Assembly: GCA_963855995.1 (NCBI GenBank)
Contig: OY979716.1
Coordinates: forward strand, 28,470,421-28,534,420
Direction of reading: 5' to 3'
DNA length: 64,000 nt
Source of the DNA: Muricea muricata
Lineage: Eukaryota > Cnidaria > Anthozoa > Malacalcyonacea > Plexauridae
Shown here: piece by piece, positions 6,813-62,440 of the stretch
How the letters are laid out: every line of letters begins with the position of its first letter
How positions within the stretch are numbered: position 1 is the first letter of the stretch
Made by a program: the position numbers and the translations under genes
Notes under the pieces: generated by a model
The model's database searches: none
The model's input: only the letters and a program-made list of their open reading frames with translations
What the model was told of the DNA's origin: nothing

Positions 6813-6817
6813 GTATT

Positions 6818-6843
6818 GCATCAAGTTCTTCTTCATTTTCATC
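6818..6843 (-). pseudogene. Micro-exon 3, 5' half, disrupted by LTR element
   Basis: This is the 26-nt 5' portion of micro-exon 3, next to acceptor CAG at 6844-6846. The adjacent GTATT (6813-6817) is the right copy of the target-site duplication of the LTR retrotransposon. It resembles micro-exon 2 (GATGAAAATGAAG against GATGCAAATGAAG). Confidence 0.55.
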
Positions 6844-6859
6844 CTGAAATGAAATTGAA

Positions 6860-9280: not shown

Positions 9281-12200
9281 ATGCCACCAAAACGCGAAAA
9301 TTGGGACCGCAAAGCCGACCGTGAATTATAACGTCGTGAGAAAAGACATGAAAAAAAGTTGCTGCAGGAACACGAAGGCGCGAACGTGCCGAAGCTGTTA
9401 AATGGGACCCTGAAATACAAAAAGAGCAAACACGTCGTACAAAGGTTACGGCTGCGGAAACGAAGAAACGCGAACGTACCGAGTTTTTAAAATGGAACAA
9501 AGAAATTCAAACAGAGGAGACACGTCGTGAAATACTTCGCGATTTAAATGAAGAAAAAGGGTGGCGCGGGTCTAAGAAAATAGGTCAAATTCGTCGTAAA
9601 TTTGAACGCGTTCTCCGAAAATTACCAACGTTTAACGTTGTAAAAACATTTTCAAATCATAATGCAAAATTTACATCGTACTTCGACACGTACAAGATCT
9701 ACGTGTATGGTCGTACAAACCCCGTCGTTGTGTTTAAAAAAGCCATGGACATGACTGTCGAAACACGTGGTCTAAGGCCTGGCGACAAGATACGTGTCAT
9801 CGTGTCGCACCCGTCGTGGCCGAACCCGTTTTCGACGAAACTAATTACGATCACGGGCGACGAACGGTTTTTCTACATGTTATTAAAAGCCGTGTTGGAA
9901 TATGTGGAGTACAAAGCCGTCCCGTTAGACGTGAAGGTTGAAATCCAGTCGACGAAAATTCCACGGGGGAAAGGCCGGTTACAAATTACAAAAACCAACG
10001 CTGCACGTAAAAGATGTATTATTGCCATAAAAAATTCTGATACCATGTGCCTTGCCCGGGCGGTTGTAACAGCACACGCTAATTTAAACAAGACAAAATG
10101 GACCAATTCCCAAATTAAAAACGGTTTTAACGACTCGAGGAAACTTTAAGGAGAAGAAGCATTAAAATTACACGAAGAGGCTGGCGTACCTTTATCCGAC
10201 CACGGTAATACTTTGGAGGACGTAACCACATTTGCAAACCATCTTGGTGTTCAAATTAGTATTGTAGACGAAGACTACTTTAATGAAATCACATTTACCA
10301 CAGGTAACGGTGAGAATATATACTTGCACAAAAATAAAAACCATTATGACGTGTCACATCGATGCCTGCGTTTTTAAGTAAAAAATATTATTGTCACACA
10401 TGTAAAAGTGCGTATACACGTCGCGACAAACACAAGTGTCCAAACAAATGTTTAGCTTGTTACAAACTTGAAAAACATACGGGTGACATAATAGTTTGCG
10501 ATAAGTGTAACCGGACATTTTTTGGACAAAAATGTTACGACGAACATTTACGGAACCGGTCAAAAGGTGGGAAACGTGACGTTGTCTGCGAACTCATTCA
10601 AAAATGTTTGGAATTTAAACGGACAGTCTCGGATCTGAAACAACATGTGTGTGGTTATGCAACGTGTAGTAATTGTAAAAAGTATTGTGATCTTAAAACA
10701 CACGAGTGTTACATGTTACGTGTAGAGACCAAAGGTGGTGCATGCACGCGTCCTACTCCATGTAAAAAAGACAAGTGTTTGTGCTGTAAGACGCGTACGA
10801 ACAACTCCATGTTTTACGATTTGGAAACGCAACAGGAGACGGGTACGCATATTGTAAATTACGTCAACGCACAAGATTTTAATGGGACCGAACATACGTT
10901 CAAAACAATAGAAGAGTTTTGTAAATTTGTGTTTACTGACAAGCATAAAAAATATACGTTCATTGCACACAATGCAAAAAGTTTCGATGTCCAGTTCATT
11001 TTAAAGTATTGCGTAGATAACACGATAAAACCATTTTGTATTTACAACGGGACGAAAATTATGTACATGTCTGTAAAAGAGTTTGATATAAGGTTTATCG
11101 ACAGTATAAATTTCATTAATGCTCCGTTATCAACGTTTCCAAAAACGTTTGGGTTAAAAGAACTGAAAAAAGGGTATTTTCCGCATTTGTTTAATATTCC
11201 TGTTAACCAAGATTACGTAGGGCCAATACCTAAAAAGTATTATTACGACCCTGATCATATGAAACCAGGGGTGCGTACTGCGTTTTTAAAATGGTACCAG
11301 GAACGCGTTGATGAAAATTACGTATTTGACTTTAAAAAGGAATTAGAAGCCTATTGTCGATCGGATGTTGATATTTTACGACGTGGGATGATGACCTTTC
11401 GTGAGGATTTTCTAAAAATTGGAAACGTTGACCCGTTACAGTATATTACCATTGCGTCGGTATGTATGGCTGTGTACCGGTCAAAATATATGCCAAAAGA
11501 TACGATCGGGGTTCTTAAAGTCGCACCAAAAAACACGGTAAGTAAAATTTCTTTACAGTGGTTGAATTGGCTATCGGAAAATATTTACATTCAACATGCA
11601 ATGAACGGTGGCGAATTCAATATTCCAACGGTTGGAAAAGTAGACGGATACTGTGCACAAACGAACAGGGTGTACGAATTTCAAGGTTGTTTTTGGCATG
11701 GGTGTAAAAAATGTTACACGGAAGACCAAATTAATTCTGTGAACCAATTAGATATGATCGAATTACAACGTACAACGCAACGGAAAAACAAACGTATTCG
11801 TGGATTAGGGTACAATCTTGTTGAAGTATACGAATGCGAAATATTAAAAACACGGCGTTTAAAAAATATCGTAAGACGAACAACGTCGAACTCGTGACGC
11901 CATTAAATCCTCGAGACGCCTTTTTTGGCGGTCAGACCAACGTGACAAAACTTAAATATGATTTTAAACCTGACGAAAAAGGTCGGTATGTAGACTTTGT
12001 AAGTTTGTACCCAACTGTAAATTTTTTTAAAGAGTATCCTGTAGGACATCCAACGAAGATTTACAATCCAAAATGTCACGATAGTAATTGGCACGGATTT
12101 ATTCAGTGTAAAATAGAACCTCCGCGCGGATTGTACCATCCCGTGTTACCTGTAAGGTTAAAATGTGGAAAAGCCATTAAATTACTATTTCCATTATGTC

Positions 12201-13229
12201 GTACGTGTGCGGCACTCCAACAACAAGAAAAATGCGAGCATTCTCCTGATGAACGTGTGTTTACAGGAACGTGGTGCCCGAACGAAGTAGCCCTTGCTCT
12301 TACAAAAGGGTACCGAATTATTGGAATATACGAGGTTTGGCATTTTGTGAAAACGTCCGGTACGTTATTTCGGGATTACGTAAGGGATTTCATGAAACTT
12401 AAAATGGAATCTTCCGATCCACCTAAAGAGGATATAAACGTGTTTAAGGCACGTGTTTAAGGCACGTGTTAAAAACCATTTAGGGATTAAATTAGTTACC
12501 ATTCAAAAGAATCCAGGAATGCGGTCGGTTGCTAAATTTTGCTTGAATAGTTTATGGGGGAAGTATGGGCAACGTACCAACATGACACAAACCGAGTACG
12601 TGACGAAACCTGTTGACTTTTACAAAATTCTTTTAAACGATACGCACGACGATATTAACATCCAGTTTCTTACAAAAGATATGGTCCAAATGAATTACAA
12701 CCTTAAAAACCAATTTGTAGATAATTACAATAACATTAACATTCCTATAGCGGCGTTTACAACATCGCACGCTCGGGAAATGTTGTATGGGGTATTGGAT
12801 AAGATAGGTACAAGAGTGTTGGGGTACGACATGGACAGTTGTTGGTTTTACGAACGGGAAGGCGAAAATACAATACCGACAGGCGATAGTCTTGGCGAGT
12901 TAACGGACGAGCTTGGTGGTGGGTATATTACCAAATGGGTTGGAACAGGTCCAATATCGTATTCGTACGAAACAAGTGACGGTGACGTGACGTGTAAAGT
13001 AAAAGGGTTTACGTTAAATTATGCATGCGGGCAACTCATTAACGGTAACGTGATGAACGACATTGTGCACGATCCGAGTAAGACCGTTATGATCACGAAG
13101 AAAAACGCCATTACACGGGACGCCAAAACAAAGACAATCGTTAACCAGGACTTGACGAAAACGTTCTCTCTCGGATATGATAAACGTGTTGTGCAAAGTA
13201 ATTTTGATACGTTACCTTATGGGTATTAA
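9281..13229 (+). pseudogene. polB: Polinton A DNA polymerase B (broken)
   Basis: Protein-primed-type family B polymerase. A charged N-terminal region (9281-9700, frame-shifted near 9355) leads to the conserved N-domain (9703-10149). There is then a stop at 10147, a frameshift near 10365, a long frame to 11897 with Cys-rich fingers and 3'-5' exonuclease ('FYDLETQ', 'AHNAKSFD', 'YCRSDVDIL'). Another shift follows near 11850, and a 13-bp tandem duplication at 12440-12465 breaks frame again. The palm follows (DFVSLYP, NSLWGKYGQ, catalytic YDMDS). Catalytic aspartates are kept, so decay is recent relative to divergence. No introns are seen where Polinton B has them. Confidence 0.88.
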
Positions 13230-13235
13230 ATAAAG

Positions 13236-13640
13236 ATGAATCCAACACAACATACCGAAAACGAACTTTTACGTATGAAAGATGAAATGCTCGAGGAAGT
13301 TCGAGGTTTAAAAGGCAAGTCCAAGAAGAAGAAGTTGTTATTTGTTGCAAAAACAACGGCAAGAGTCTTGTTGATCGCAGGTGGAGTAACGGCTGCGGTG
13401 TTTTTTCCACATACTATTTTACTGGTTGCCATTGGTGGTGCTGCTGCGCTTTTTGATACGGGGAAATCTTCGAAAAAAGACATGAAGAAAATTCATGATA
13501 CTGCAGCAAAAAAGAAAAATGTGCTTCAAGGATTAAAAGGTGTTAGTGAAGAATTAATTAGAAAACAAACACGTCGTGAGTTTTTAGAAAATCCAACGGC
13601 ACCACCATTATATCCACCATTGGAAATAGAGAAAAATTAA
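13236..13640 (+). CDS. Small membrane protein with PTAP/PPxY late-domain motifs
   Basis: 134 aa. It has a charged helical N-terminus, a Lys-rich stretch, then hydrophobic segments at about residues 40-75 that could form one or two membrane helices. A charged region follows, and the tail contains PTAPPLYPP. Within that tail PTAP and PPLY (PPxY) overlap; these are the two classical motifs that recruit Tsg101/ESCRT-I and NEDD4-type ligases. It starts 7 bp after the PolB stop, same strand. I do not recognise the family. Membrane location and ESCRT recruitment are inferences from motif and hydropathy. Confidence 0.6.
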   Translation: MNPTQHTENELLRMKDEMLEEVRGLKGKSKKKKLLFVAKTTARVLLIAGGVTAAVFFPHTILLVAIGGAAALFDTGKSSKKDMKKIHDTAAKKKNVLQGLKGVSEELIRKQTRREFLENPTAPPLYPPLEIEKN

Positions 13641-34371: not shown

Positions 34372-34846
34372 TACACAACATTAAGCTATACAAAAGAGTA
34401 CGCAGGGAATTTTGGAATAACTGTTTATGGTACCAAATCGACGGGTACTATCGGGAACAAAAAGGTTTCCAGGAAGCACTATTATTTTACATATTTAACA
34501 TATGTGAGATTAATCCTGCAGACAAAGTTGCAAGTATGGTTCACCATATATTAAAATTTTTTTTTTCAAAAAACCCGAACACCGTGGTGGTGTGTACAAA
34601 CAAATCCGGTGCGAAATTTTACCTATTCTTTGGAAAAACCATAAAGCTATAGAGCGTAAAAAACAACGTAAGCTGACATTTCTTGCAAACGAATTAGGTA
34701 ATGTAGGTCGGTTAGTCGAAGCACACGTCGTACGTACGATTGTGAAACCGTACATTCGCAATATGAATAGGAAATGGTCGAGAATGACTGCATTAAGAAA
34801 ATTAAAAGCGGTACCACCGTTGCTTACCCCACCAAAATACACCTAG
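34359..34846 (+). pseudogene. Conserved small Polinton protein, frameshifted (A copy)
   Basis: Two overlapping frames (34359-34652 and 34592-34846) form one protein interrupted at a T10 run near 34557. The C-terminal part ('ILPILWKNHKAIERKKQRKLTFLANEL') is clearly homologous to 56633-57160 in Polinton B. Function unknown; conservation between two distant Polintons indicates a real gene. It is highly basic and lies next to the GIY-YIG gene. Confidence 0.7.
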
Positions 34847-34985
34847 GTTACGCAGTACGGTTTAAGCACCGCCAGCAAAAATTTAAACAAAATTTTTTTG
34901 TTCAAACAGTACGGCCGGCAAAATTTTTTTGTTTACGCAGTACAATTTAAGCACCGCCGGCAAAAATTTAAAAGAGTACAATGAT
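34847..34985. repeat. Short duplicated GC/AT tract between convergent genes
   Basis: Two copies of TACGCAGTACGGTTTAAGCACCGCC-like sequence lie 50-60 bp apart, each followed by GGCAAAAATTT. It may be a terminator-like spacer between convergent genes. Confidence 0.5.
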
Positions 34986-36251
34986 TTAAAATCGTCGGCC
35001 GTAATGTCTAAATATTGCCCGTCGCGGACTGTAAACGATACGCTCGTTTCGGTAACGTCGCCGGTTTTTATAAGACGACGTTAAACCTGAACCTATCCAA
35101 ATGAGCGTTCGGGTATTGTTGAGCGAATTGTCGTTCCATACGTTTTTTGTACTTTTTAAATTCCGTAACGCCTTGTTGTAATTAGGCCCGAAATATTGTC
35201 TGTACGACGTTTCGTATTTTTTAAAGTCTTCTTCAGACATTTTATTGAATGTTTTTAATACCCACGACTGACTATCGTACCCTAACCATTTTACTAACGC
35301 CATCCCATCCTTTTTTCGAAGTATTTTTTCTATTTTGTACATATCGTCTTTTTTGTTGATGAGGGATAACTCTTGTTCGTAGAATTTTCCGATAATCGGT
35401 TCTCCTTCGTGATCCTGTATTTCGTAAACGGTAGGGTCTCCTCGAAGTACTTTGGACACTCTAAAAATTTCTTCGGTAAAATTTGCTTCGTACTCTTTTG
35501 CAAAAATACTTTTGTATTTGCTAACTCTAACCGTATCCCCGACCTTGAATTTAGGCGGTTGTAAACCTTCCAAAACATGTCCGTATAACGTAACCCATAC
35601 TATATTTTCATTAGTTTTGTTCACGTCTTTTGGTTTCATATGAATGGACTTATGTTCGGTATTGTTGTAATTTTTACTGTAAAAATATTTTTCCATCTTT
35701 GTTTTTAATGTCCGGTTAAACCTTTCGACGATAGCAGCTTTCTTATCGGATTGTGTGGAAAAGTAATGAACGTTATGGCTTTCCAGTAATTCCCTAACAC
35801 CAACATTATAAAATTCTTTTCCTTCGTCAAACTGAGCAACGTTAGGGTATTTTCCAAACCTTGTCCTAAATGTACCTAATAGTTGGTCGACGGCTTTAGT
35901 CATGTTTTTTGTATCCTTCCTGTAAACGGGAACCGTAAAAGCATATCGGCTAAGGATTTCTATAGATGTTAATATCCACCGGTACCCTTTTTACTTGCGT
36001 ATTTTCCCATATCGACGAGGTCCATTTGTATTTGATCGGCAAGACCTTTTACAAACGTTTTCATGAATTTATGTTTCCGAATGACAGGTTTGAATTTCGT
36101 ATATGTATCTTGCGTTTCCAACCATTCTTTTACAAGTCTCGTCTACTAACTTTTACTCCATCGGCTTTTGCTTTTTGGTATAATTTTTCTGCAGATTGAT
36201 AACCTTTAGAACGATCATAGTAGATGCCCCTTAATTCCTGTTCGTTGATCA
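34986..36251 (-). pseudogene. Polinton A integrase (broken)
   Basis: Retroviral-type integrase with C-terminal chromodomain. The open part (35903-34986) has the second and third acidic residues ('AQFDEGKEF', 'AAIVERFNRT') and a chromo-like 'YKIEKILRKKDGMALVKWLGY'. The N-terminal part from ATG at 36251 ('MINEQELRGIYYDRSKG') is intact for about 35 codons and then broken by at least three frame changes or stops, including the first acidic residue's region. The family joins Polinton ends to host DNA. Confidence 0.85.
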
Positions 36252-36257
36252 TATTTT

Positions 36258-36863
36258 TTATTCGATATATAATTCGAGCATAACAGTTAATCCAACACCG
36301 TAACCGATATTCGTGTTCACGTCGAATTGGAACGTGCTGTGATCACCGTTTAGGACCGAGACCGACGTGTGAATATTATCGTACGATGTCACGGATTCGT
36401 TTAAACTTTGTTCGGTCGTGACGGGAATACGTGCGAATACTCGACTCGGTTTACCGTACGTATCGAAATTCCGATCGGTATTAACACAATTACATCCGAG
36501 CGTTACGTACCGTAATCCGCGGTTAATATCGACGACAAACGGCGACTTCGTTTTGGTATTTTTTGGAATGATCGCATTTTCTGGGAATCCAAGTAACGGT
36601 CCAAAATGGTACAGGTTTAACTTTTTTGGCGATAAAATACTGCACCTATTATTGTGTTTGTACCGTTCTAACGTAATACCGGATTCGGCTAAACGATCGG
36701 CAATCATATTAAACGTCCAGTACCCTTCTTCGAATGCAACGCCCGTTGCAGGATGATCGGGAACCGTTATAAATTTTATAAGATTGTTGTCGTTTGTTAA
36801 AATGTTCTTGTACTTCCATAACACGCTAATGTTTTTAACATGGACCTTTTCCCCGTATTTCAT
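36258..36863 (-). CDS. Conserved Polinton virion-type protein (A copy)
   Basis: 201 aa, open. It shares with 54556-55266 of Polinton B the pattern 'EGYW-F--I--RL', then 'N-CSI', 'LGPLLGFPEN' and 'D-N-GLRY----C', and ends in a beta-rich C-terminus ('VGLTVMLELYIE'). The predicted mostly-beta fold and its place among morphogenesis genes suggest a minor capsid or penton-like role; this is inference. It stops 7 bp before the integrase start on the same strand. Confidence 0.6.
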   Translation of the reverse strand: MKYGEKVHVKNISVLWKYKNILTNDNNLIKFITVPDHPATGVAFEEGYWTFNMIADRLAESGITLERYKHNNRCSILSPKKLNLYHFGPLLGFPENAIIPKNTKTKSPFVVDINRGLRYVTLGCNCVNTDRNFDTYGKPSRVFARIPVTTEQSLNESVTSYDNIHTSVSVLNGDHSTFQFDVNTNIGYGVGLTVMLELYIE

Positions 36864-40889: not shown

Positions 40890-42434
40890 TTATAATTTCA
40901 ATAACCTTTTAAACGAAAAATACGTGTCTTTTGTAAAGTTCATAGTTTTGTTATTATCGGGTTGGAACACGAAATAGATGGAATTCCCTAAAATGTTTTC
41001 GTTACTCCTAGACTCTAAATTTTGCATAACAAATTCATACGTCGACCGATGTTCGCGATCTTTCGACAAACCTATATCTACACCATAGATACCCGTACCG
41101 CTGTTTAAAAAAGACCCTTTAATGAATACCTTTTTACCAGTAGCCCGATGAAAATAACCACCCTGTATGTTATCTTGTGCAACTTTGTTCGTTAAACTCC
41201 AACTAAAATACTTGTATTTCGCCGACGCATTGTACCTGGACCCACCGCAATCACCCCACAACCCTATGTTATACCCTACAGACGACGTTAATACGATGTA
41301 CATTTTGTATGCGTAAATACCTTTTTGAAGTTTTGGCGAAACGCTGAAGTTAATTTGGTAACTAGTACCTACTTTGGAAAAGTCTACGATGGTGTTACTA
41401 CGACCGTTAAAAGGCGTATCGACCATATCGTCGATGTGAGTAACCGTATGCGTAGTCATCGTCCCTTCAAACGTTAAAATATTTAAATAATCGTAATGAT
41501 GCATTTCGGCAAAAGCTTTCGTCTCGGGTTCACCCGACGATCGTGGAAAAGGTAAATTTAAAATACGGTTGTCGTCCATGTCTGCACCTTTTTTAACGTA
41601 CTGGGACTCTGTAAAGTCCTTCGACACGGCAGACGTACCGTCAGACGGCGTAGAATTTAACCCCAATACTTCATGATTGTTCATACCGGTATTGTCCTGC
41701 ATCGTAAACCCAGAATGCGTTAAGTATACTCGGTTCGCATATTGTTTTGTAATAGGGTCGTTTGCTAGAGTAGGGTCTGGGAGGTTTGTAATTTTATTAT
41801 TATTCATATCAATGTCACCCTGCATCGTAAAACCTGAAGAGGACAACCCACCACTACCGGGCAAACCGCGTGGACCCTGTGCACCCTGATCACCCTTCAA
41901 ACCCTGTGGACCTTGGTCACCCTGATCACCCTTCAAACCCTGTGGGCCTTGGTCACCCTTCAAACCCTGTGGACCTTGGCCACCCTGATCACCCTTCAAA
42001 CCCTGTGGGCCTTGGTCACCCTTCAAACCCTGGTCACCCTTCAAAACCTGTAAACCTTGGTCACCCTGGCCACCCTTCAAACCCTGTGGACCTTGGGCAC
42101 CTTTCAAACCCTGTGGACCTTGGTCACCCTGATCACCTTTAGGTCCTTGATCACCTTGGTCGCCTTTAGGTCCTTGGTCACCTTGATCACCTTTAGGTCC
42201 TTGATCACCTTGATCACCTTTAGGTCCTTGATCACCTTGACCGCCTTTCGGTCCTTGATCACCTTTAGGACCTTGTTGACCACTACCACCAGAATAATGA
42301 CTGTCGGCATAACCCTTCGTTACAGGCTCTGAACCTGTCGATGGATTTGGTAGGTTTATAATCTTATTACCCTGCATATCGATATCTTCTTCGATAGTCT
42401 CTAGACAACTTGAATAACCAAACAATAGCGACAT
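40890..42434 (-). CDS. Collagen-like fibre with phage-tail-fibre-type repeats (514 aa)
   Basis: Start chosen at 42434 (MSLLFGYSSC), close to the divergent gene start. It has one tail-fibre-like repeat (DIDMQGNKIINLPNPS...EPVTKGYAD), then about 50 G-x-y triplets (mostly GDQGPKG/GPQGLKG, residues about 55-200). Three more repeats of the form 'DM--N-I-NLP-P----P-TK-YA' follow, and a beta-rich C-terminal domain of about 190 residues. The architecture is that of a trimeric receptor-binding fibre on the virion surface. No frame breaks despite decay elsewhere in Polinton A. Confidence 0.75.
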   Translation of the reverse strand: MSLLFGYSSCLETIEEDIDMQGNKIINLPNPSTGSEPVTKGYADSHYSGGSGQQGPKGDQGPKGGQGDQGPKGDQGDQGPKGDQGDQGPKGDQGDQGPKGDQGDQGPQGLKGAQGPQGLKGGQGDQGLQVLKGDQGLKGDQGPQGLKGDQGGQGPQGLKGDQGPQGLKGDQGDQGPQGLKGDQGAQGPRGLPGSGGLSSSGFTMQGDIDMNNNKITNLPDPTLANDPITKQYANRVYLTHSGFTMQDNTGMNNHEVLGLNSTPSDGTSAVSKDFTESQYVKKGADMDDNRILNLPFPRSSGEPETKAFAEMHHYDYLNILTFEGTMTTHTVTHIDDMVDTPFNGRSNTIVDFSKVGTSYQINFSVSPKLQKGIYAYKMYIVLTSSVGYNIGLWGDCGGSRYNASAKYKYFSWSLTNKVAQDNIQGGYFHRATGKKVFIKGSFLNSGTGIYGVDIGLSKDREHRSTYEFVMQNLESRSNENILGNSIYFVFQPDNNKTMNFTKDTYFSFKRLLKL

Positions 42435-42895: not shown

Positions 42896-43001
42896 AGTAG
42901 TATTGTGTAGGCACTATAGCGAGATTTTTAAAATTCCATCGTTCAAAAGTCACATTATATATTCCGATCTCGCTATAGTGCCATACAGAATAATCAATAT
43001 T
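42896..43001 (+). repeat. Polinton B left TIR
   Basis: 106 bp, starting AGTAGTATTGTGTAGGCACT. It contains an internal perfect inverted repeat GGCACTATAGCGAGAT (42915-42930) / ATCTCGCTATAGTGCC (42967-42982) able to form a hairpin. Confidence 0.95.
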
Positions 43002-43008
43002 TGTAAAA

Positions 43009-43080
43009 TCCTCTGTAGTATAGTGGTGAGTATCCCCGCCTGTCACGCGGGAGACCGGGGTTCGATTCCCCGCAGGGGAT
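43009..43080 (+). tRNA. tRNA-Asp (GTC)
   Basis: The 72-nt gene folds as a full cloverleaf: a 7-bp acceptor stem TCCTCTG/CAGGGGA, D arm with TAGTGG box A, anticodon GTC at 43042-43044 in CCTGTCACG, and a T arm with GGTTCGATTCC box B. The discriminator base is T where animal tRNA-Asp has G. No CCA is encoded. A TTTT run about 20 bp downstream could end Pol III transcription. It lies 7 bp inside the left TIR, so it is part of Polinton B. Confidence 0.92.
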
Positions 43081-43185
43081 GAAATATTTGTTCATTTATT
43101 TTCTCATCCACAATATTCGTATTCATTTAAATCTTTTTAAAACATTTGAGTGGTTCTTAAAAGAACTGTTTTTTGTTTTTTTCTT

Positions 43186-45412: not shown

Positions 45413-45580
45413 AACGGAAAGTGCAGTTTTTAAGAAAGTGCAGTTTTTAAGAAAGTGCAGTTTTGAAGAAAGTGCCGTTTTAAAGAAAGTGCAGTTTTTA
45501 AGAAAGTTCGGTTTTTGTAGAAAGTGCATGTTTGGAAAGTACATGTTTTAAAAAGTGTGGTTTTTATAGTATAAATACAA
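45413..45580. promoter_or_regulatory. Array of eight GAAAGTGCA-type motifs plus TATA box
   Basis: Eight GAAAGT(G/T/A)C units spaced 17-20 bp lie between divergent genes 45365 (minus) and 45609 (plus), followed by TATAAATAC at 45571. The same motif occurs in three other Polinton B promoters. Regular spacing suggests a cooperative transcription-factor array. Confidence 0.7.
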
Positions 45581-46453: not shown

Positions 46454-48391
46454 TTACAGAATTTGATTTACTTCGAAAATTAATTGAGATTCATTCCCTA
46501 GTGCAGTTGCAGGGCGTTCCTGTCTAAATTCTAAAGTGAATCCAATACATGTTGCTGTGGGAGTGTACATAAGATTTTTATTTAAGTAAAAGGTGTTAAC
46601 ACTCCTTTTAGTTCCCGTGTAATCCATATTCCTAAAAGGGTATGCGGTTGGGGTAGAAACTGATTCTTCATATACCATTAAACGGTATTGGAAGGTAAGG
46701 CTCGCTGTAGGGATTGTATTATCTTTATCAAAGGTATGTGTGAGGAGGGTTATTATTATTTTACCTCTCCCTTGGCAAGGGAGGACTGGTACAGGATAAC
46801 CTGTGACACTTGGTTTAAAATGGCACCAGTCATTATTATTTGTTTTAGCTTCTGCGGGGGATATGTAAGGTAATAAAAAAGTCATACGATGAGGTATTGT
46901 ATTTATTATATTATGTAAGGTTAACCTCAACGACTCGTTTGCAATGACTGTACCATCGGGTTGTTTCATTCCTGCAAGGAGGGTGTCTCCTACCATAACG
47001 TCTTGAAACTTGTTTTTGTCAAAGTCTTTCTGATGCGGATAAGGCATGTGGGTTGTAATATTTGCCATGTTATAATCGCTGTCTGAGAAATTATTAAAAG
47101 TAAACCCTTCAAAAATTTCCATACCCATTTTACCATTCTTTAGTTTTGAAGCTGTGAAATCGAATTGTACAGTAGTTCCTGACCTTGCTAAGGCATCGGC
47201 ATCAACGTTAACCAGGTAGTATTCGTAAACATTTCCATTTAGGTTTATTGAACCAATGCTTTTAATTAATTGGGTGACATCTACATTACCCACATCAGTA
47301 AATGCATCTTTTATTTCGAGAGCTTTTCCTGTTTCGTCAAGAAACTTAACGCAGAATATCATACCATATTTGTCCTTACGGGTTTGAGGTGTAGTGAAAG
47401 CAATTTTACAGAAAATTTCACCATTTACTTTATCTTGTGTGATTTTCAGCGGGGCACGAAAACCTATATGTGGGACTTTTTCATTTCTTGTTTCTCTGTT
47501 TACTACCAAGTTTTGCCCCAGTCCACCGTTGTAGGGTGAGAATTTTCCTGAACTTGCAAATTGGAACTTCTCAAAAGTCCCTTTAACATTCCCACTGCTG
47601 TCTTCATAAGTTATTTTTTCAAAATTTTTATCAACCATAACAAGTTGTCGTTTATTAATACTTCCCATATCTCCTTTTTCACCTTTATCACCTTTTGCAC
47701 CTTTAGGACCTCTTGCCCCAACATTACCTTGAGGTCCTGCAGGTCCTGTACTGCCTTGCTGACCTGAAGGCCCGTTAGGGCCAGGTACTCCTTGAGCGCC
47801 TTGTGCCCCTCGGGGTCCTGGTTGGCCTTGTGCTCCTGAAGGTCCTGTTTTTCCAGGAGGGCCCGTGCTTCCTGAAGCCCCTTGATTACCTGAAGCCCCT
47901 CGTGGTCCTTGATCTCCTTTATCTCCGCGAGGTCCTTGAAGTCCTTGAGGTCCTGCGAGTCCTTGAACTCCTCGTTTTCCTGCAGCTCCTGCCGGTCCTT
48001 GATCTCCTTTGTCTCCTTTAGGGCCTTTTTGTCCTGGTGCACCATTGTTTCCTGCAGTCCCTGTAGGTCCTGCAGGGCCTGTAGGACCTTGAGGACCTAC
48101 ATCACCTTTATCACCTTTAGGTCCTGGATCGCCTTTATGTGCAGCAGCACCGGGATCACCTCTCGGGCCACGCTGTCCTATTAGGCCTTGAATTCCTATG
48201 TTCCCTTTATCGCCTTTATCTCCTTTTGCACCTGTAGGCCCTGGGGGTCCTATTTTCCCAGGAGGACCTATAGGTCCTACCGGACCTGCAGGTCCTACAG
48301 CCCCAGCAGGTCCATGTATACCGTCATTACCGTCATAGTTATAACAAAAATTAAGGTTACCGCTAGTGAATGGATATCCTCTCTTCATCAC
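46454..48391 (-). CDS. Collagen-like fibre protein of Polinton B (645 aa)
   Basis: A 25-residue N-terminus leads to about 74 uninterrupted G-x-y triplets (residues 26-247; many [10 protein letters not shown] and GDKGDKG units), then about 395 residues of beta-rich sequence in at least two domains. It is a trimeric triple-helix stalk with C-terminal head, as in viral receptor-binding fibres. Location opposite the MGC protein matches Polinton A, though sequence outside the collagen stretch differs. It is presumably exposed on the capsid vertex. Confidence 0.78.
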
Positions 48392-48730: not shown

Positions 48731-49813
48731 ATGGATGAGTATGATGAATATTTAACTCAAGTTTATTACAACCCAAAACGAACAGGTGGTCTTGGCGGTG
48801 CAGAACGACTATACCGTGATGTTAAAAAAGATGGAAAGTATGATATCTCTCGAGCTTATATTAAAAAATGGTTAATGAAACAAGACACTTATACATTACA
48901 CAAACCTGCTCGTCGACATTATAAGAGGAACCGCGTTATTGTTGGTGGTATTGATGAATTGTGGCAAATGAATTTAGCAGATATGCAATCTATTAAAACT
49001 GATAATGATGGGTACCGCTACTTACTTATGTGTATTGATGTATTCTCAAAATTTTTATGGGTTATTCCCTTAAAGGACAAAACAGGTCCTGCTTTAGTAA
49101 AAGCTTTTAAGGTAATTCTTGAATCTGGACGTAAACCTCAAAAGATACAGACAGATCAAGGTACCGAATTTTTTAATAGACCATTCAAAGCTTTAATGAA
49201 AGAAGAAGAGATTCAATTATACAATACATATAATGAAACTAAAGCTTCAGTTGTAGAACGAGTAATCCGTACTTTAAAAACACGGATGTGGCGTTACTTT
49301 ACTGCTAAAAAGACCATGCGATACATAGATGTTTTACCTGACCTTGTGGATTCATACAATAGAAGTAAACACAGAAGTATTCAAAAGAAATTTATTAATG
49401 TTACACAAAATAACGAGCAGGAAGTATGGCATACATTATATGGAGAACGTGAGAATAAAGGGAATATTAAATACAAATTCGAAGTAGGAGACCAAGTGAG
49501 AATTAGTAAAATGAAACGTACTTTTGAAAAAGGTTACTTACCTAATTTTTCAAAAGAAATTTTCACTGTTAGTCAACAAATACCTCGACAACCTCCAGTG
49601 TATAAACTGAAAGATTACGATCAAGAAGAATTGGATGGAACATTTTACAATGAAGAACTGCAAAAAGTTATTAAAGAGGATGATGTCTATGAGATAGAAA
49701 AAGTATTGAAAAGACGCGGGAAAGGAAAAAACAAGGAAGTTTTTGTCAAATGGTTAGGATATCCTGCTAAATTCAATTCATGGATTCCTGCATCACAAGT
49801 AAAAGATATTTAA
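48731..49813 (+). CDS. Polinton B integrase with chromodomain (360 aa)
   Basis: Start chosen at 48731 (MDEYDEY). Zinc-binding-like N-terminus, then an rve core with acidic residues in 'MNLADMQS', 'IQTDQGTEFF' and 'VVERVIRT', and a C-terminal chromodomain ('YEIEKVLKRR...EVFVKWLGYPAKFNSWIP') that may target chromatin. It catalyses insertion with 6-bp staggered cuts, matching the observed AACGAA duplication. Complete. Confidence 0.93.
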   Translation: MDEYDEYLTQVYYNPKRTGGLGGAERLYRDVKKDGKYDISRAYIKKWLMKQDTYTLHKPARRHYKRNRVIVGGIDELWQMNLADMQSIKTDNDGYRYLLMCIDVFSKFLWVIPLKDKTGPALVKAFKVILESGRKPQKIQTDQGTEFFNRPFKALMKEEEIQLYNTYNETKASVVERVIRTLKTRMWRYFTAKKTMRYIDVLPDLVDSYNRSKHRSIQKKFINVTQNNEQEVWHTLYGERENKGNIKYKFEVGDQVRISKMKRTFEKGYLPNFSKEIFTVSQQIPRQPPVYKLKDYDQEELDGTFYNEELQKVIKEDDVYEIEKVLKRRGKGKNKEVFVKWLGYPAKFNSWIPASQVKDI

Positions 49814-51574: not shown

Positions 51575-52984
51575 ATGAGTTACGTACATCCTTACTCGAA
51601 ACGTTGCGAAAAAAGTGAAATTGATTTATTCAGTATTCCTCCAACACAATTAAGTTTAGAAAAAGGACGATGGATTGATTACCGACCTCTTTCCAGTGTG
51701 CAAAATGACGATAGTGCAATTACTTATTTGATATCGGGAACTGACGAATACATTGATCTATCAAAAACAATCCTAGTTGTTGAAGGGAAGGTTACAGATC
51801 CTGACGGAAACGATCTAACTGGTGGTGGTCAGGCGAATGTGGCTCCGGTAAACAATTTCTTGCATAGTTTATTCAGGCAAGTTGATGTTTATTTGAATGG
51901 AAAACAGGTCACCCCTGCCATGGGTACATATGCATACCGTTCTTACATAGAAACCCTTTTGAACTATGATGTATCAGCAAAGAAATCTCAGCTTTCTTCA
52001 GCAATGTACTATAAAGACACTCCTGGGAAAATGAATGACAAAGGCGGTTTACCGGAAGAATTAGAAACCAAGGTTACGCTTAAAGATGGTACTGTCGAAA
52101 ATAAATGGATCAGAACTGCCGGTACAGGGAACCAGGGGTTTGCAAAAAGGTCGGAGTTCATCCAAAACTCAAAAAAGTTTACTTTATCGGGACCTATTTT
52201 CTCAGATGTGTTCATGGGTGATCGCCTTTTATTGAATGGAATGACTCTTAAAATAGTGTTAAACCGTTCATCCAATGAATTTTGTTTAATGGATAAAAAT
52301 GCTTCTGAAATTGGTGCTAAAGTTAAATTTAGTGATGTTGTTCTAAAAATACGGAAAGTTAAAGTGGACCAGGCAGTCAGTGATGCAACAGAACTTCTCT
52401 TACTAAAGAGTCCTGCTATTTACCCAATCCGATGCGTGGAATGCAAAACCCTTACAATCTCTGCAGGTCTTTCTAATACCCGGATGGATAACATTTTTTC
52501 GGGTCTAATCCCGAAATCGTTTGTATTTGGACTTGTGGATTCTAATGTATATACAGGTAAAAGCGGACTAAACCCGTACAACTTCCATCATTACAAAGTT
52601 ACCAATGTTAGTTTGAGTGTCAATGGCGAAGAAATTCCTTTCAAACAGCTTGTCCTTAATTATACTAGTCCAGACTCTTTGGACTTCATCCAAGCATATA
52701 ACACTCTATTTTCGGGTACTGGAAAAATGTATGCTAATACGGGATTGGATATCTCCAGGGAAGATTACCGTCATGGCTATACTTTATACGCCTTTGATTT
52801 GACCCCTGATATGTGTAACACTACAGACTATTTTAATGCAGTACAACGTGGATCCTTATCAGTTGCTATCACCTTTGGGGAGAATACTCCACAGGACAAA
52901 TCAATTGCTATGGTGTGTTATGGAGATTTTGAAAATGTTATACGCATTGATTCTCAAAGAAATGTAATCTATGACATATCGTAA
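51575..52984 (+). CDS. Polinton B major capsid protein (469 aa)
   Basis: It matches the F54H12.2-like family by its N-terminal 'DLFSIPPTQLSLEKGRWIDYRP', the 'NNFLHSLFRQVDVYLNGKQV' segment and overall length. The family is a double jelly roll forming hexon-like trimers of an icosahedral capsid. Intact; flanked by core and protease genes. It is a different lineage from the capsid gene in Polinton A. Confidence 0.9.
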   Translation: MSYVHPYSKRCEKSEIDLFSIPPTQLSLEKGRWIDYRPLSSVQNDDSAITYLISGTDEYIDLSKTILVVEGKVTDPDGNDLTGGGQANVAPVNNFLHSLFRQVDVYLNGKQVTPAMGTYAYRSYIETLLNYDVSAKKSQLSSAMYYKDTPGKMNDKGGLPEELETKVTLKDGTVENKWIRTAGTGNQGFAKRSEFIQNSKKFTLSGPIFSDVFMGDRLLLNGMTLKIVLNRSSNEFCLMDKNASEIGAKVKFSDVVLKIRKVKVDQAVSDATELLLLKSPAIYPIRCVECKTLTISAGLSNTRMDNIFSGLIPKSFVFGLVDSNVYTGKSGLNPYNFHHYKVTNVSLSVNGEEIPFKQLVLNYTSPDSLDFIQAYNTLFSGTGKMYANTGLDISREDYRHGYTLYAFDLTPDMCNTTDYFNAVQRGSLSVAITFGENTPQDKSIAMVCYGDFENVIRIDSQRNVIYDIS

Positions 52985-53020: not shown

Positions 53021-53521
53021 ATGGACACTCTTCAAATAGAACGTGCCCTTGAACACAACACATTTACAAAAAAGACATTCTGTGGTGTATTTCCTGCTGA
53101 TGAACTACCTATAATTGATACATTCCCTTGTGGATTGGTTGCTAATACAGATCCTAGTACTGAACCAGGAACACATTGGGTGGCATTTTACTTTCCTCAA
53201 AGTGGAAAAGGAGAATTCTTTGATAGTTACGGGTATCCCCCTGAATATTATGGGGAATCATTTAAATTTTATAAAACGGAAATGATAAACAATCGTAGAT
53301 TACAAAGCTCGTGGAGTGAAGTGTGTGGACAATACTGTATTTTTTACCTTTACCATAGGAGTCGTGGTTATAGCATGAATAAAATTGTAAACTTGTTTTC
53401 AAGTAATGTTGAGTTAAATGATTGTAATGTAGCTTGTTATATTAAAAAACATTTTAAGATAGTTATAGAAAACCAACCCATTTGTGGGCTTAAACAATGT
53501 TGTAAAGCTTTACTGAAATAA
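53021..53521 (+). CDS. Adenain-type cysteine protease (166 aa)
   Basis: Catalytic His in 'GTHWVAFYF', acidic partner in 'GEFFDSYGYP', and Cys in 'VCGQYCIFYLYHRS' (Q upstream forms the oxyanion hole). This is the Polinton/adenovirus C5/Ulp1-fold maturation protease, which cleaves virion precursors after packaging. It ends about 95 bp before the convergent gene at 53615. Confidence 0.9.
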   Translation: MDTLQIERALEHNTFTKKTFCGVFPADELPIIDTFPCGLVANTDPSTEPGTHWVAFYFPQSGKGEFFDSYGYPPEYYGESFKFYKTEMINNRRLQSSWSEVCGQYCIFYLYHRSRGYSMNKIVNLFSSNVELNDCNVACYIKKHFKIVIENQPICGLKQCCKALLK

Positions 53522-55287: not shown

Positions 55288-55914
55288 TTACTTTGGCATA
55301 TATACTATATGTCTTTCTCCAGGAAAAATATTGGTACGTAATCGTAGGTTTTCAGAAGTTTGGGGATGACAATCAATAAGTAAATAACTAAAAGGTTTCT
55401 TAGTTGCGTCACGGAAAGAATCCATTAAGTATTGACTTTGTCCCGGGAACATTTGTTTCGCTAAAGTAGCAATTCCCAAAGTATCACGAGGGTTTTTAAA
55501 AACTATAATGTAATGAGAATTCAAACTGATAGTTCTAGATAATTTCCCAGGAGGAAATAAATTTTGGGTAAGATATAGTACTGAAATCCCTTTATGATGA
55601 GAACCTCTTGTAAAAAAATCAGAAACACGTTGATCTTTAGAACATTCACTCATTAAATCATCCAATATTAACAATGTTTGATCGTGCCCTTGTGTTAATT
55701 GTTTTAAATCTCCTGGAAATCCTTCAATAAAATCTACTTCTTTTAGTTCATCAAATTCCTTTTGATATTCTCCATAACAGTAAACCACCTTTGTTGGAAC
55801 AGGATGAAACAATTCATTTAAATAATGTAATAATTTACGAACAAAATACGATTTTCCACTTTGAGTTTGTCCTGATATATAAAAATTAGCAGGTACTTTA
55901 AATCTCACATCCAT
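55288..55914 (-). CDS. Polinton B packaging ATPase (208 aa)
   Basis: Start chosen at MDVRFKV (55914), because upstream codons to 55959 are hydrophobic and untypical. Walker A GQTQSGKS at about residue 15, Walker B 'TLLILDDLM' at about 85, and 'VLYLTQNLF' sensor. FtsK/HerA-like genome packaging motor. Intact. Confidence 0.92.
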   Translation of the reverse strand: MDVRFKVPANFYISGQTQSGKSYFVRKLLHYLNELFHPVPTKVVYCYGEYQKEFDELKEVDFIEGFPGDLKQLTQGHDQTLLILDDLMSECSKDQRVSDFFTRGSHHKGISVLYLTQNLFPPGKLSRTISLNSHYIIVFKNPRDTLGIATLAKQMFPGQSQYLMDSFRDATKKPFSYLLIDCHPQTSENLRLRTNIFPGERHIVYMPK

Positions 55915-56462: not shown

Positions 56463-56635
56463 ATGGAAAGTGCATGTTTGGAAAGTGCATGTTTGGAAAG
56501 TGCATGTTTGGAAAGTTCATTTTTTTTGGAAAGTGCATTTTTGGAAAGTGCATGTTTGGAAAGTTCATTTTTGGAAAGTTCATTTTTTGGAAAGTGCATT
56601 TTTGGAAAGTTCATTTTTTGGAAAGTGCATTTTTA
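56463..56635. promoter_or_regulatory. Array of eleven GGAAAGT(G/T)C motifs
   Basis: Eleven units of TTTGGAAAGTGCAT or TTTGGAAAGTTCAT are spaced 14-20 bp apart upstream of the 56416 minus-strand gene. Both strands read open by periodicity, which explains several false ORFs. Confidence 0.75.
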
Positions 56636-57160
56636 ATAAGTACAGTCCGAATCCCACACAACTGATTCGAGTTTTTGTACACATGTCATTTTACTCCACT
56701 CTAAATTCATATCACGTATGTATGGTTTCACAATTACCCGTACGATGTGCGCTTTGATGTGTTGTCCTCCATTATCCAATTCATTGGCAAGGAATGTTAA
56801 TTTCTTTTGTTTTTTACGTTCAATCATTGTATGATTTTTCCAGAGTACAGGTAAAACTTGATGTTTAATTGTTTTATATACACCTTTCCTATACATAGGT
56901 TTTCCAAACATATTTGATTTCAAAAAACCATGAATTATAGCTGTAACCATACTTGCAATGTTTAATTCGCATACTTTGAATATGATACATTTCGTACATT
57001 CTTTATAGTATACTGTTTCTTTATACCATCGCGGTAAATGATTGTAACGAAATTCCCTATGAAGATCTTTGACTAACTCGTCTGTGCTGTTGAGCGTTTC
57101 CAGAACGGACAGAATGTTATTTATTTTTACACTAACGCACTCATTGATTTTTCCTGCTTT
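56633..57160 (-). CDS. Conserved small Polinton protein (B copy), start codon unclear
   Basis: Homologous to 34359-34846 ('VLPVLWKNHTMIERKKQKKLTFLANEL'). The coding frame is open from about 57200 but has no in-frame ATG before M at 56950, which lies inside the conserved region. Either a spliced leader exon, a non-AUG start or loss of the start must be involved. Function unknown. Confidence 0.55.
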   Translation of the reverse strand, partial: KAGKINECVSVKINNILSVLETLNSTDELVKDLHREFRYNHLPRWYKETVYYKECTKCIIFKVCELNIASMVTAIIHGFLKSNMFGKPMYRKGVYKTIKHQVLPVLWKNHTMIERKKQKKLTFLANELDNGGQHIKAHIVRVIVKPYIRDMNLEWSKMTCVQKLESVVWDSDCTY

Positions 57161-57167
57161 AAAGTTT

Positions 57168-57225
57168 TTGGAAAGTGCATTTTTGGAAAGTTCAGTGTTG
57201 AAGAAAGTGTCGTTTTGAAGAAAGT
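57168..57225. promoter_or_regulatory. Short array of GGAAAGT(G/T)C motifs
   Basis: Four units lie between the PolB stop and the small conserved gene on the same strand. Confidence 0.55.
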
Positions 57226-57228
57226 TCC

Positions 57229-60200
57229 TTAAAACCCATAGGGTAATGTTTCATAACTGTCTGTAATAACGCGCTTATTATATACAATGCGATAATCTTT
57301 CTTCATTTTTTTGGTGACAATGTTTTTTTCTTTTTTGTCCCGTGTGATTTTAAAAGGAATGTCAATTGTTACTTTTGCTTCCATTTCGCAATTCACACTT
57401 AAATGAACAAGAGCTTGAACAACATCATGATTAAGTTTCCCTGATGTAGCATAGTCTAAAGTAATACCACGTATCTTCGTTTCTGTTTTACCATTCTTTG
57501 TGCGGTAGGCATAATTCTTAGGTCCACCAGAGACAAACGATGTAATGTAATCTCCATCCAACTCATCTGTGAGGTCTCCCAAATAATTCCCCAAAGGCGG
57601 GCCAGGTTTACCTGTCTTATGCACATAAATCACAGAGTCTGTGTCATAGTACAAGACACGCTCTTGTAGCACATCTAACAAATCATATAACTTCAAACGG
57701 GCATAAGCTGTAGTAAAGGCTGCAATCACAATATTAACTTTATCATTATATTCAATAAATTCTTCCGCAGTCTTATACTGAACTTCGAGCATAACATCAT
57801 TGACAATACGTGCATTACATACTTCGAATTCTGCAGAGTACAAAAGGTCGTAGAAACGGGAGGGTTCTTGTACCATTTCAGTTTTGGTTAAATTTGAACG
57901 TTGTGCAAATTTCCCTAAAAATATAAAAATTTTTTACTAATACTGCTCAAAAGCTTGATAATAATAATATAATTATATACGTACCCCATAATGAATTCAA
58001 CATAAGTTTTGCTAAAGAACGTAGGCCTGAATTATATTCAATCCTCTCAGGATCAAGATGAATTTCTTCGTGCTCATAATACTCATTGATGTAATCTTGT
58101 TTCTGCTCTTCCGTAATACAACCTTTAAGGTAACCACTGGCCTCTTGTTTAATCTTCAGGAACGTGTTTACATACTCTTTAAACAATTCAGTAGAATGGT
58201 TTGGGAAATGCCAGACTTCGTGAATTTTTAAAATTCGGTACCCTTTTTCAATAGCTTTCATTAATTCCACATGACACCACGTACCAAGGATAGATCTTTC
58301 TTGCTCAGAATGCGTACACGGGGCTTTATTCAAGGTATCAACACAGGTTTTACACAAAGGAAACATGAGTTTATTCTGTGTATGGTAAGGAAGAACAGGG
58401 TGGCGTAAACCTCTGGGTGGTAATGCTGTACATTTGATTAAACCAAAGTAGGAAGAAATATCTTCAAAATTCTCTGTGATAATTACAGGATGCCCAATCA
58501 CATTCTCTGTTGATTTGTTACAACAGGGATATAAACTTGTAAAATCCACATACCTAAATATAATATTTTCAATTATTACTTTTCAAATAAGTCTTATAAA
58601 AAATTTCTTAAAAATACTTACTTTATTTCCTCGTCTTCTTCACATACGTGATATAGTTTTGCAGCATTAGTACGTCCCCCATAGAATGCATCACGTGGAT
58701 GTAAAGGATCAACAAGTTCGTACTCCTCAAAATACCGTTTCATATTTTCATCATGTTCCATTTCTTTCTTTAATTCACATTCCCACATTTCTACAACACG
58801 GAAACCTTTACCTTTAAGATAACAAATCTTTTCCAATGTATCTTCATGAAGCTGTTGCATAGTCTTTCCATTTACAGAATTCACAGTATCCCTAGCATAG
58901 CAATCCAAACACCCTGAAAATATATACACGTTTATATTTAATAACTTATCCTTATTCAAATATTATTAATATTTTTCCACATAACTTACCATGCCAAAAA
59001 CATCCTTGAAATTCGTACGCTGTATGCAGCTCTTCGCAATACCCATCCAATGAATATTTTCCAACACGTTTCTCTCCACCATTTCTAACATGGTCGATCT
59101 GTATGTTGTTTTCTTGCATGACGTAAGATAACCATTTAACAGCTATATTGGACTGTTTTGTTTTCAAGTAACGGTCAGGAGGAAAAATGGCTATGGTATC
59201 TTTCTCCAAGAAATTAGTACGGTAAACTTCATGACAAGCACTTGCAATTGTTAAGCATTTCTCGAATGGATCGATATTTGTAACTTCACGAAGCATTTCA
59301 CGAAATTCCATGCAACATTTCCGTAAAATGTCAACATCAGACCTGCAATACTTGACAATCTCTTCTTTAAAATTAAATACATAATTGTTATCTCTTTGCT
59401 CTTTATGCCACGAAAGGAATGCTTTCCTTGTTTCAGGTTTCATTGAATTAGGAAAGTAATAGGGCTCAGGTGGAATAGGACCTATATAATCTTCATTCTC
59501 TGCCCGGTTAAATAGGTGAGGGAAGTAACCTTTACATAATTCATCCATCCCAAAAGTTTTAGGAAACTTGGCTAAACCCATAGGAATAAAATTGAGGGAG
59601 TCGATGAACTTTATATTGAACATGGGTACTGTCATTGAAAGGATTTTTGCACCTCTTAAAATAACTTCATATTTAACACCATTCTGGTTGAGATAATTCT
59701 GAATGAAATATCCGTCATACCCTTGGAAATTATGTGCTACCAGTATACAATCCTTATGTTCATTTGTAAATAGCCATTTGCAAAAATCCGCATTGGTATT
59801 CTTACCCTGGAATATCCACTCGTCTCCAGCTTCATTATGTACAATACATAAATTAGGTTTGTGAATTCCATCTTCCTGTGTACTCTCAAAATAAAAAAAC
59901 AGTAATTCGCTATACCGACTTTCTTCAGGCTGTACTGTTTTCTGTATATAACACTTATGTTCATTATCCTCTTTAAGAATTTCTCGACATGTTTTACATT
60001 TTCTTCCACATATATGACTCTTTAAGCTTATAACATTCACAGATTTTCCACAATTTTCACACTTCTTTATTCCTTCACAAACTGATTTTCCGCGACCTAT
60101 GGGTTCTTTATGCCGATCATAGCATGCTTTACTTCTGAACATCCGACCACACTGATCACATTTCATAGGACCATCTACTTTACATTCATAAGCACGACAT

Positions 60201-60988
60201 GATTTGCACATCCCTGAACATATATGATTAAGGGTTTGGTCGTAGGGACGTCTGCACTTATGACAAAAATAGGATTTGGACAGGAAACCAGGCATACTGG
60301 TAATAACATCATAATGATTATGATGAAGGTATAGGTAAATAGGTTTTACATCAGAAGTTGCAGGACTGGGTGGATAAATAATGGAATTGTTATGGTCTAA
60401 TGAAACTATATTTATTTCATAGCCAGTAAGATATTCTTGAAACTTTTCCACTTCAGGTATACCACATGGACCAAAAGGAACATTAGCTGACTGATGTAAT
60501 TCTCTTGCTTTATCTTCTTGTGCTTTCCAACGAGAATCTGTTAAAGTCTTATACCTTGGGTCTTTTTCAATTTTAGCAATACCCACTACAAGTGCTCGTG
60601 CTAAACATAAGTCATCTTTATTTCGTATGTTTATAATTGACCTTTTCTTTTGTAAAAATTCTTTTAAATCAATAAGGTCACGCTTTTTTCTCCCACTACC
60701 TTGAGGTGCTTCAACGTGTACTATATCTACTACAACAGTATCATTTAATCGGAAGTCACGGTTGGACTGAATAACACGTTCAATTTGGGAAAAAATACGT
60801 TCGGGTGTAAGTTGTTGCACAGACATGAAAGGTAAGGAAATAGGAGTTTCCAATTGAGTAGAACGTAAAACAAAATGTACTTGATCTTTTTCATCCATAC
60901 CATTAGTTATATCATTGAGCAAATGTTCAAAAATCTTTTGTGTACGTTCATAACTTTGAATTAAATCAAAATCATCTTGAGAAACCAA
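57229..60988 (-). CDS. polB: Polinton B DNA polymerase B, four exons (1181 aa)
   Basis: Exons 60988-58990, 58913-58622, 58553-57985, 57914-57229. Introns of 76, 68 and 70 bp are AT-rich with GTAAGT/GTACGT donors and (T)nAG acceptors, and the joined frame is open for 1182 codons. Domains: N-domain, Cys-rich fingers ('CHKCRRPYDQTLNHICSGMC'), exonuclease ('AHNFQGYDGYF', 'YCRSDVDILRK'), TPR-type palm 'DFTSLYP', 'NSLWGKF', catalytic YDTDS. Exo motif I reads FYFES where D-x-E is expected, so proofreading may be lost. Protein-primed replication of the linear element is the family role. Confidence 0.93.
57915..57984 (-). other. PolB intron 3 (70 bp)
   Basis: GTACGT...TTTTTAG; interrupts the Gly codon of the NSLWG motif. 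Confidence 0.9.
58554..58621 (-). other. PolB intron 2 (68 bp)
   Basis: GTAAGT...ATTTAG; interrupts a Lys codon just before the DFTSLYP motif. Confidence 0.9.
58914..58989 (-). other. PolB intron 1 (76 bp)
   Basis: GTAAGT...TTTTCAG; interrupts a Gly codon in 'FWHG'. Removing it restores the frame. Confidence 0.9.
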
Positions 60989-61860: not shown

Positions 61861-62181
61861 TTAACAAGTCCGACAATTGCACTTGGTTGCAACAGATACA
61901 ACTTGAACACTACGAGGAGAATTACACAAGACAACTCGCTTTATCCTTTTCTTAATTGGTTTACAGCAAGTACATGTTTCTATAAATCCATTTATCCCTA
62001 ACCGCGGTTTTGCAGTAGATATACAATAGCCATTACATCCAAAACTACTAACTGTTTTTTTACCGCAACCATGTGTCAATACTTCAGCTTGTATCTTTCG
62101 TGAACGACACAACTCATGACTAATAACACTTGCGAAAAGTAAATTAGACAGAATAATCAATCCTAGGCAGATTTTACTCAT
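61861..62181 (-). CDS. Secreted cystine-knot protein (bursicon/DAN-like, 106 aa)
   Basis: Start at MSKICLGLIIL (62181); the first 21 residues form a signal peptide ending near 'FASVIS|HE'. The mature part has 11 cysteines in the CTCK order: C25, C39, then CNGYC (CxGxC), then CTCC, C86, and a C-terminal CNCRTC (CxC..C). This is the layout of bursicon and DAN/gremlin-type extracellular ligands or BMP antagonists. It is the last gene before the right TIR, within Polinton B. It was probably captured from an animal host; it may act on host signalling. An ATG at 62214 would add 11 unlikely residues. Confidence 0.75.
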   Translation of the reverse strand: MSKICLGLIILSNLLFASVISHELCRSRKIQAEVLTHGCGKKTVSSFGCNGYCISTAKPRLGINGFIETCTCCKPIKKRIKRVVLCNSPRSVQVVSVATKCNCRTC

Positions 62182-62227
62182 ATTACTTGAATCATAGCCT
62201 TGAGAAAATAACAAAATAGATTTACCA

Positions 62228-62318
62228 AAAACTGCACTTTAAAAACTGGACTTTCTAAAAATCTGCACTTTCCTAAAAACATGACTTTCCTATTAAATAT
62301 CAATTAACGGGACTTTCC
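62228..62318 (-). promoter_or_regulatory. Promoter array with ACTTTCC motifs and a perfect kappaB-like site
   Basis: Four ACTTTC(C) units (the complement of GGAAAGT) are followed by GGGACTTTCC at 62309-62318, identical to a classical NF-kappaB site. It lies 47-137 bp upstream of the cystine-knot ATG, between it and the right TIR. Confidence 0.6.
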
Positions 62319-62334: not shown

Positions 62335-62440
62335 AATATTAATTATTCTGTATGGCACTATAGCGAGATCGGAATATATAATGTGACGTTTGAACGATGG
62401 AATTTTAAAAATCTCGCAATAGTGCCTACACAATACTACT
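62335..62440 (-). repeat. Polinton B right TIR
   Basis: 106 bp inverted copy of the left TIR with three mismatches, one inside the internal hairpin stem (CGCAATAG against CGCTATAG). Confidence 0.95.

Follow-up and report, generated by a model that had tools for sequence, protein, structure and literature searches.

A 64,000-nucleotide stretch of the genome of the octocoral Muricea muricata (GenBank assembly GCA_963855995.1, contig OY979716.1, positions 28,470,421 to 28,534,420, hereafter the window) contains a 19.5-kb Polinton in which a gene for a small protein with a C-terminal cystine knot (CTCK) lies between the family-B DNA polymerase gene (PolB) and the right terminal inverted repeat (TIR) (Table 1). 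It is likely that a Polinton lineage took up a CTCK gene of the bursicon/norrin type, which it retains as an accessory gene, probably for modulating BMP, LGR or Frizzled signaling of the host. The TIRs with AGTAGT/ACTACT ends and the AACGAA sequence on both sides place the gene inside the element, as the preliminary description of the window had claimed when it called the gene cargo. The AGT-type TIR ends, the 6-bp target-site duplication (TSD), the rve integrase and the family-B polymerase identify the element as a Polinton/Maverick. The Pfam domain DNA_pol_B_2 (PF03175), run on the first of the four PolB open reading frames (ORFs) only (58952-60898), scored 86.6 bits, above the cut-off.

Of the 12 cysteines in the 106-amino-acid protein, C5 falls in the leader; the other 11 belong to the mature part (C25, C39, C49xGxC53, C70xC72C73, C86 and C101xC103xxC106). 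The CTCK order read earlier for these 11 cysteines is borne out by their positions and by the Pfam DAN domain (PF03045), whose match of 31.3 bits (E=2.2e-7) exceeds the cut-off of 22. The Cys_knot profile of Pfam, at 20.2 bits, stays under its cut-off of 24. The CTCK-order pattern was found in none of 200,000 shuffles of the protein's own residues, a sanity check only, as the pattern was written after the protein was inspected. In an alignment of 16 sequences, which leaves out the degenerate P0005 and the truncated P0008, every sequence matches DAN at E<=0.01, and the knot cysteines, including CxGxC and CxC, are invariant. In the PDB, a profile of these 16 sequences picked out bursicon, gremlin, VWF-CTCK, NBL1 and norrin, with E-values from 3e-13 to 4e-11; the best match was bursicon (3.1e-13), with gremlin and VWF close behind. 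With the single sequence, the bursicon match had an E-value of 0.28. The deeper AlphaFold2 run gave a model of moderate confidence (predicted TM-score (pTM) 0.51). The best structure matches of this model are CTCK structures, so that the structure prediction proposed in the preliminary description as a check came out in favor of a CTCK fold. Sequence and model together confirm that the protein belongs to the CTCK/DAN domain family. The fold and cysteines match those of norrin, bursicon, NBL1 and gremlin, but the Foldseek alignments show just 17-26% identity.

The protein is probably secreted. Its leader is hydrophobic, with an 11-residue mean of 2.41, and the same feature is common to the ten full-length Polinton copies described below and L009 (2.15-3.06); these values are hydropathy means. 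The signal peptide suggested earlier stands as a putative one, with a hydrophobic leader and a presumed cleavage site. The cysteine pattern CxCC...CxCxxC is that of bursicon and norrin and not that of the gremlin/NBL1 type. Bursicon and norrin form dimers through additional cysteines and signal by way of LGR or Frizzled receptors, whereas the gremlin/NBL1 types block bone morphogenetic proteins (BMPs). From this pattern and this biology, the most likely role of the protein would be that of a secreted dimer acting on host cells, and BMP antagonism would be just one among several possible activities.

The genome (453 Mb in 74 contigs) was searched with the CTCK protein by tblastn. Among the 15 matches, 12 show 69-100% identity and three show 30-37%. 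Eleven of the 12 close copies are in Polintons or their deletion derivatives, and one is free-standing (L023, C2:12553679). Eight of the 12, including the window copy, adjoin PolB. In a derivative of ~2.7 kb (L022), the CTCK copy is accompanied by a zinc-finger-like ORF and a PolB fragment, and in another of ~2.9 kb (L026), a truncated copy adjoins protease and capsid-region ORFs. The smallest is a 0.79-kb TIR-CTCK-TIR mini-element with an intact ORF and a 6-bp TSD (L025; C10, about 6737-7524). The matched frame has no in-frame stop in any of the 12 close copies, of which one is truncated, and all 11 cysteines are kept in 10 of the 10 full-length Polinton copies.

The 11 element copies are spread over four large contigs (13.9-124 Mb), and ten are flanked by identical 6-bp duplications: AACGAA, TATATT, GCGTAA, GTCGTT, AGTACA, TGTGTA, GACGTT, AATGTT, CTTGTT and TCCTTG. 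The first base of one TIR differs in the element with CTTGTT. The eleventh copy, L021, is outside this count, its fetched piece being without the far TIR. A chance ORF or an assembly chimera is refuted by these copies, together with the DAN score above cut-off, and retains practically no probability; the earlier proposal to look for related copies is answered by the Polintons at other loci that also carry the gene. The TIR holds an internal inverted repeat, GGCACTATAGCGAGAT...ATCTCGCTATAGTGCC, at 42907-42982 and in the right copy. The interpretation of the shared ends as a mere small palindromic element was rejected because the 6-bp duplications abut the AGTAGT ends exactly in ten elements.

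The DAN profile has 16 matches in the genome, of which four are copies of the present group. The other DAN genes include gremlin-like and NBL1-like genes, as judged by the cysteine pattern. Three near-identical DAN-type genes (L056, L058 and L059) are located ~120-130 kb apart at 6.13-6.38 Mb of C2.

A 16-bp repeat, GAAAGTGCAGTTTTTA, is found upstream of the gene. The window has 22 matches to it where 1.8 would be expected, and all 22 are inside the element. Four copies are 45-108 bp upstream of the CTCK start codon in the same sense as the gene; a further site is at 43863, and arrays occupy 45417-45566, 56511-56636 and 57171-57218. Same-sense repeats precede the gene in ten of the 11 element copies (the window and nine of ten others), and none was found in the 8.8 kb around the free-standing gene. 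The repeats are also in one non-carrier piece, as expected for an element-wide repeat. They may act as promoters or regulatory repeats of the CTCK gene.

Pairwise ratios of nonsynonymous to synonymous substitution (dN/dS, NG86) were calculated for the ten full-length Polinton copies and the free-standing gene, 55 pairs in total. All 48 pairs with dS>0.2 show dN/dS of 0.07-0.46; these pairs share history and are not 48 independent tests. Fisher tests with rounded counts for three pairs gave p values of 9e-4, 3e-8 and 3e-5. Nothing can be read from the seven closest pairs, whose dS is below 0.08 and whose dN/dS runs from 0 to 0.71. These ratios indicate that the CTCK gene is kept under purifying selection through repeated integrations. 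Such selection across divergent copies, the retention of 11 cysteines in the full-length copies, and the element-type repeats upstream of the gene all speak against a passive passenger, that is, a host gene swept in near the TIR and copied along without benefit to the element. A passenger would fit the variable slots beside PolB, where related elements carry other ORFs, the internal deletions, which spare TIR-proximal genes through position alone, and the truncation of one element copy. We regard it as improbable.

Capture of the gene from the host by the Polinton lineage is favored by the sequence comparison, not proven, as more than one branching order near the free gene is compatible with the data. 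The Polinton copies form one clade, supported at 98/99 with eight rows and at 92/100 after the addition of P0005. The free-standing copy and the database proteins P0003, P0006 and P0007 lie outside this clade; still further out is another gene family, which is not of Polintons (L013, P0009 and P0010). The deep branches of the CTCK tree are weakly supported. Because P0001 equals two genomic copies, and because the open frames of two others contain P0002 and P0004 without a mismatch, these three add no independent evidence. At the DNA level, the free copy is 72-80% similar to nine full-length Polinton copies over 257-305 bases, in the coding sequence only, and it has no match at the threshold used to the tenth, L025.

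The flow could have been the reverse: the free gene would then be a domesticated Polinton gene, and the original donor would be another, older host gene. The free gene is near the node joining the groups, and approximately unbiased (AU) tests do not reject alternative groupings (p 0.19-0.58). However, the 8.8 kb seen around the free gene contains neither TIR-like repeats nor any match to the Polinton proteins of the window, the homology to the Polinton copies ends at the coding sequence, and P0003, P0006 and P0007 group with the free gene. It is unlikely that the gene moved in this direction. Of the earlier claim of a captured host signaling ligand, the capture thus stands as the favored reading, through the free-standing relative and the Polinton clade, with its direction unproven.

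The distribution of the gene among Polintons was analyzed with PolB, for which the genome has at least 87 matches; 68 of 615 candidates were scored, and the counts are lower bounds. Seven matches, including the window, cover at least 629 of 648 residues at 85% identity or higher, and all seven carry the CTCK gene. One further carrier has PolB at 79% identity. A partial match at 87% (C1:54593111) has an upstream piece with other ORFs and without the CTCK gene. It was first considered a close relative minus the gene and was reclassed as a non-carrier, the nearby N-terminal match being 78%. For 15 other PolB matches, the upstream piece was searched for the CTCK gene, and none has it (0/15). Among these 15 pieces, the slot contains a 'YYYF' ORF in seven, a zinc-finger-like ORF in seven, and both in five, each query having been drawn from one of the 15. 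In the tree of the PolB 5' region (326 columns), nine carriers and eight non-carriers separate, and the non-carriers are supported at 100/99. Rooted on a single long outgroup row, the tree needs a minimum of two state changes, and carrier monophyly is compatible with the data (p-AU 0.31) rather than demonstrated. With this distribution, the CTCK gene is best seen as a lineage-specific accessory gene of Polintons. An ORF like that at 56633-57085 of the window is on the TIR side of PolB in elements without CTCK (L028-L032, L034 and L062) and downstream of PolB in the window and in five of the seven other carriers with PolB; this shift of position indicates that the accessory slot was reshuffled. 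Scans of IMG/VR with the CTCK protein, an 11-sequence alignment and PolB yielded no relative, with the records from the window's own genome possibly excluded.

The protein might also not be a signal at all, but a dimerizing extracellular structural component, for instance of the virion surface or matrix, or else a protein that pairs with CTCK hormones of the host as a dominant negative. The profile matches include structural CTCK domains, those of VWF and mucin-2, and a collagen-repeat ORF in the same element suggests extracellular or fiber proteins. The 0/15 result, on the other hand, implies that the protein does not belong to the core of the virion. A non-signal role is somewhat unlikely.

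The accessory-gene reading can be put as the following series of events. An octocoral Polinton lineage would have picked up a cellular gene whose product is a small CTCK protein with cysteines arranged as in bursicon and norrin. The gene occupies the TIR-proximal accessory slot beside PolB, behind element-type repeats, and has been retained by purifying selection across successive integrations. On expression of the element, the protein would leave the cell as a homodimer joined by disulfides, or paired with a CTCK protein of the host as a heterodimer. On the producing and neighboring host cells, it would then block BMP-type ligands or engage receptors of the LGR/Frizzled type. The tissue would thus stay permissive for replication or spread of the element; the change in tissue growth or immunity put forward in the preliminary description stays hypothetical. 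A stronger version is possible but doubtful: driven by the Polinton's own repeats, the captured ligand would be a paracrine signal reprogramming host tissue, and deletion derivatives, one of which consists of TIR-ligand-TIR alone, would scatter working hormone-gene copies through the host genome.

Several points weigh against capture and retention for host signaling. The gene is truncated in one of the element copies (L026/L012), and the degenerate relative P0005 has lost cysteines; therefore, some copies are non-functional. In the carrier L024, no recognizable repeats precede the gene. The case for the direction of capture rests on the Polinton-free surroundings of the free copy, which on the 5' side were seen for just 1.5 kb, and the AU tests allow more than one order of the free-standing genes relative to the Polinton clade. 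The confidence of the AlphaFold2 model is moderate, and a run from six close sequences gave a pLDDT of 42 and was discarded. Sequence alone does not tell gremlin/NBL1-type from bursicon/norrin-type activities.

Large DNA viruses capture cystine-knot ligands, for example VEGF-E of Orf virus, whose structures (2gnn and 3v6b) are among the fold matches of our model. VEGF-E is likewise a host-type cystine-knot ligand carried by a DNA virus, but it is of the VEGF/PDGF type and from a vertebrate poxvirus, whereas the ligand here is of the CTCK/DAN type and in a ~20-kb integrating cnidarian element. Nematode Mavericks are also Polintons bearing captured non-core genes, with cargo that differs from CTCK. 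Vertebrate Mavericks have (AGT)2 ends, 6-bp TSDs and variable ORFs in the regions flanking the core modules, as does this Polinton; the part of that source considered here describes the accessory products as 'diverse proteins' and, unlike this element, mentions no CTCK ligand (PMC8097293). Cnidarian bursicon/glycoprotein-hormone-like peptides (Burs/GPH) and BMP antagonists have the same domain, and the Burs/GPH peptides are described as having a single cysteine pattern in common with bursicon and norrin, but these are cellular genes and not Polinton-borne (PMC4079206). No published Polinton with a CTCK ligand gene was found in the literature searched, which comprised titles and abstract starts and covered few subscription papers.

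Table 1. Features of the CTCK-bearing Polinton, in positions of the window.
Feature	Position	Strand	Evidence
Left TSD, AACGAA	42890..42895	.	flank reading
Left TIR, starts AGTAGT	42896..43001	(+)	97% complementary to right TIR
Polinton integrase, rve and chromodomain	48731..49813	(+)	Pfam PF00665, 44.4 bits, above cut-off
Putative capsid ORF	51575-52984		position alone; Pfam: no match
Putative adenain-type protease, Peptidase_C5	53021..53521	(+)	Pfam 20.4 versus cut-off 21.3, just below
Putative packaging ATPase, Pox_A32/FtsK-like	55288..55914	(-)	Pfam 20.3 versus cut-off 22.8, just below
PolB region, four ORFs (58952-60898, 58618-58860, 57947-58366, 57229-57876)	57229..60898	(-)	
CTCK/DAN-domain protein gene, putatively secreted	61861..62181	(-)	106 aa and stop, single open frame
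Cystine-knot domain, residues 25-106	61864..62109	(-)	11 Cys invariant in 16/16 aligned sequences
Putative signal peptide, residues 1-22	62116..62181	(-)	hydropathy and AlphaFold2 model helix at residues 3-17; cleavage site inferred
Four 16-bp repeats (up to 3 mismatches), putative regulatory	62226..62289	(-)	gene sense
Right TIR, ends ACTACT	62335..62440	(-)	97% complementary to left TIR
Right TSD, AACGAA	62441..62446	.	perfect 6-bp match to left

Two ORFs with collagen repeats were observed at 46454-48388 (-) and 40890-42434 (-) (Pfam Collagen, 118 and 71 bits); the former, of 644 aa, is within the CTCK-bearing Polinton and may encode a fiber-like protein. A tRNA-Asp(GTC) is at 43008-43081 (+), just inside the left TIR, and one other carrier has a 94% identical tRNA-Asp close to the corresponding end (L047 2486-2557). 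It was rejected as part of the system because ARAGORN found tRNA-Asp in just one of seven other far-end pieces. Pieces of other Polinton-type elements, with PolB ORFs, an integrase, and minor-capsid-like and ORF56633-like matches, are at 9745-13640 and 34386-36863 of the window. Contig C1 starts with CCCTAA repeats (82 in 3 kb). Contig C74, taken as mitochondrial, contains COX1 and a MutS_V domain at 120 bits. Mitochondrial MutS is known only from octocorals, and C74 agrees with the cnidarian host named in the preliminary description.

If the reading of an accessory gene that modulates host signaling is true, such a ligand, being under selection, secreted and derived from the host, would testify directly to host manipulation by animal Polintons. 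This reading lends itself to testing: the protein has 106 residues and a predicted fold, its cellular counterpart is present in the same genome, and the pathways can be assayed. Polintons would also offer a route for moving hormone genes between animal genomes or multiplying them within one.
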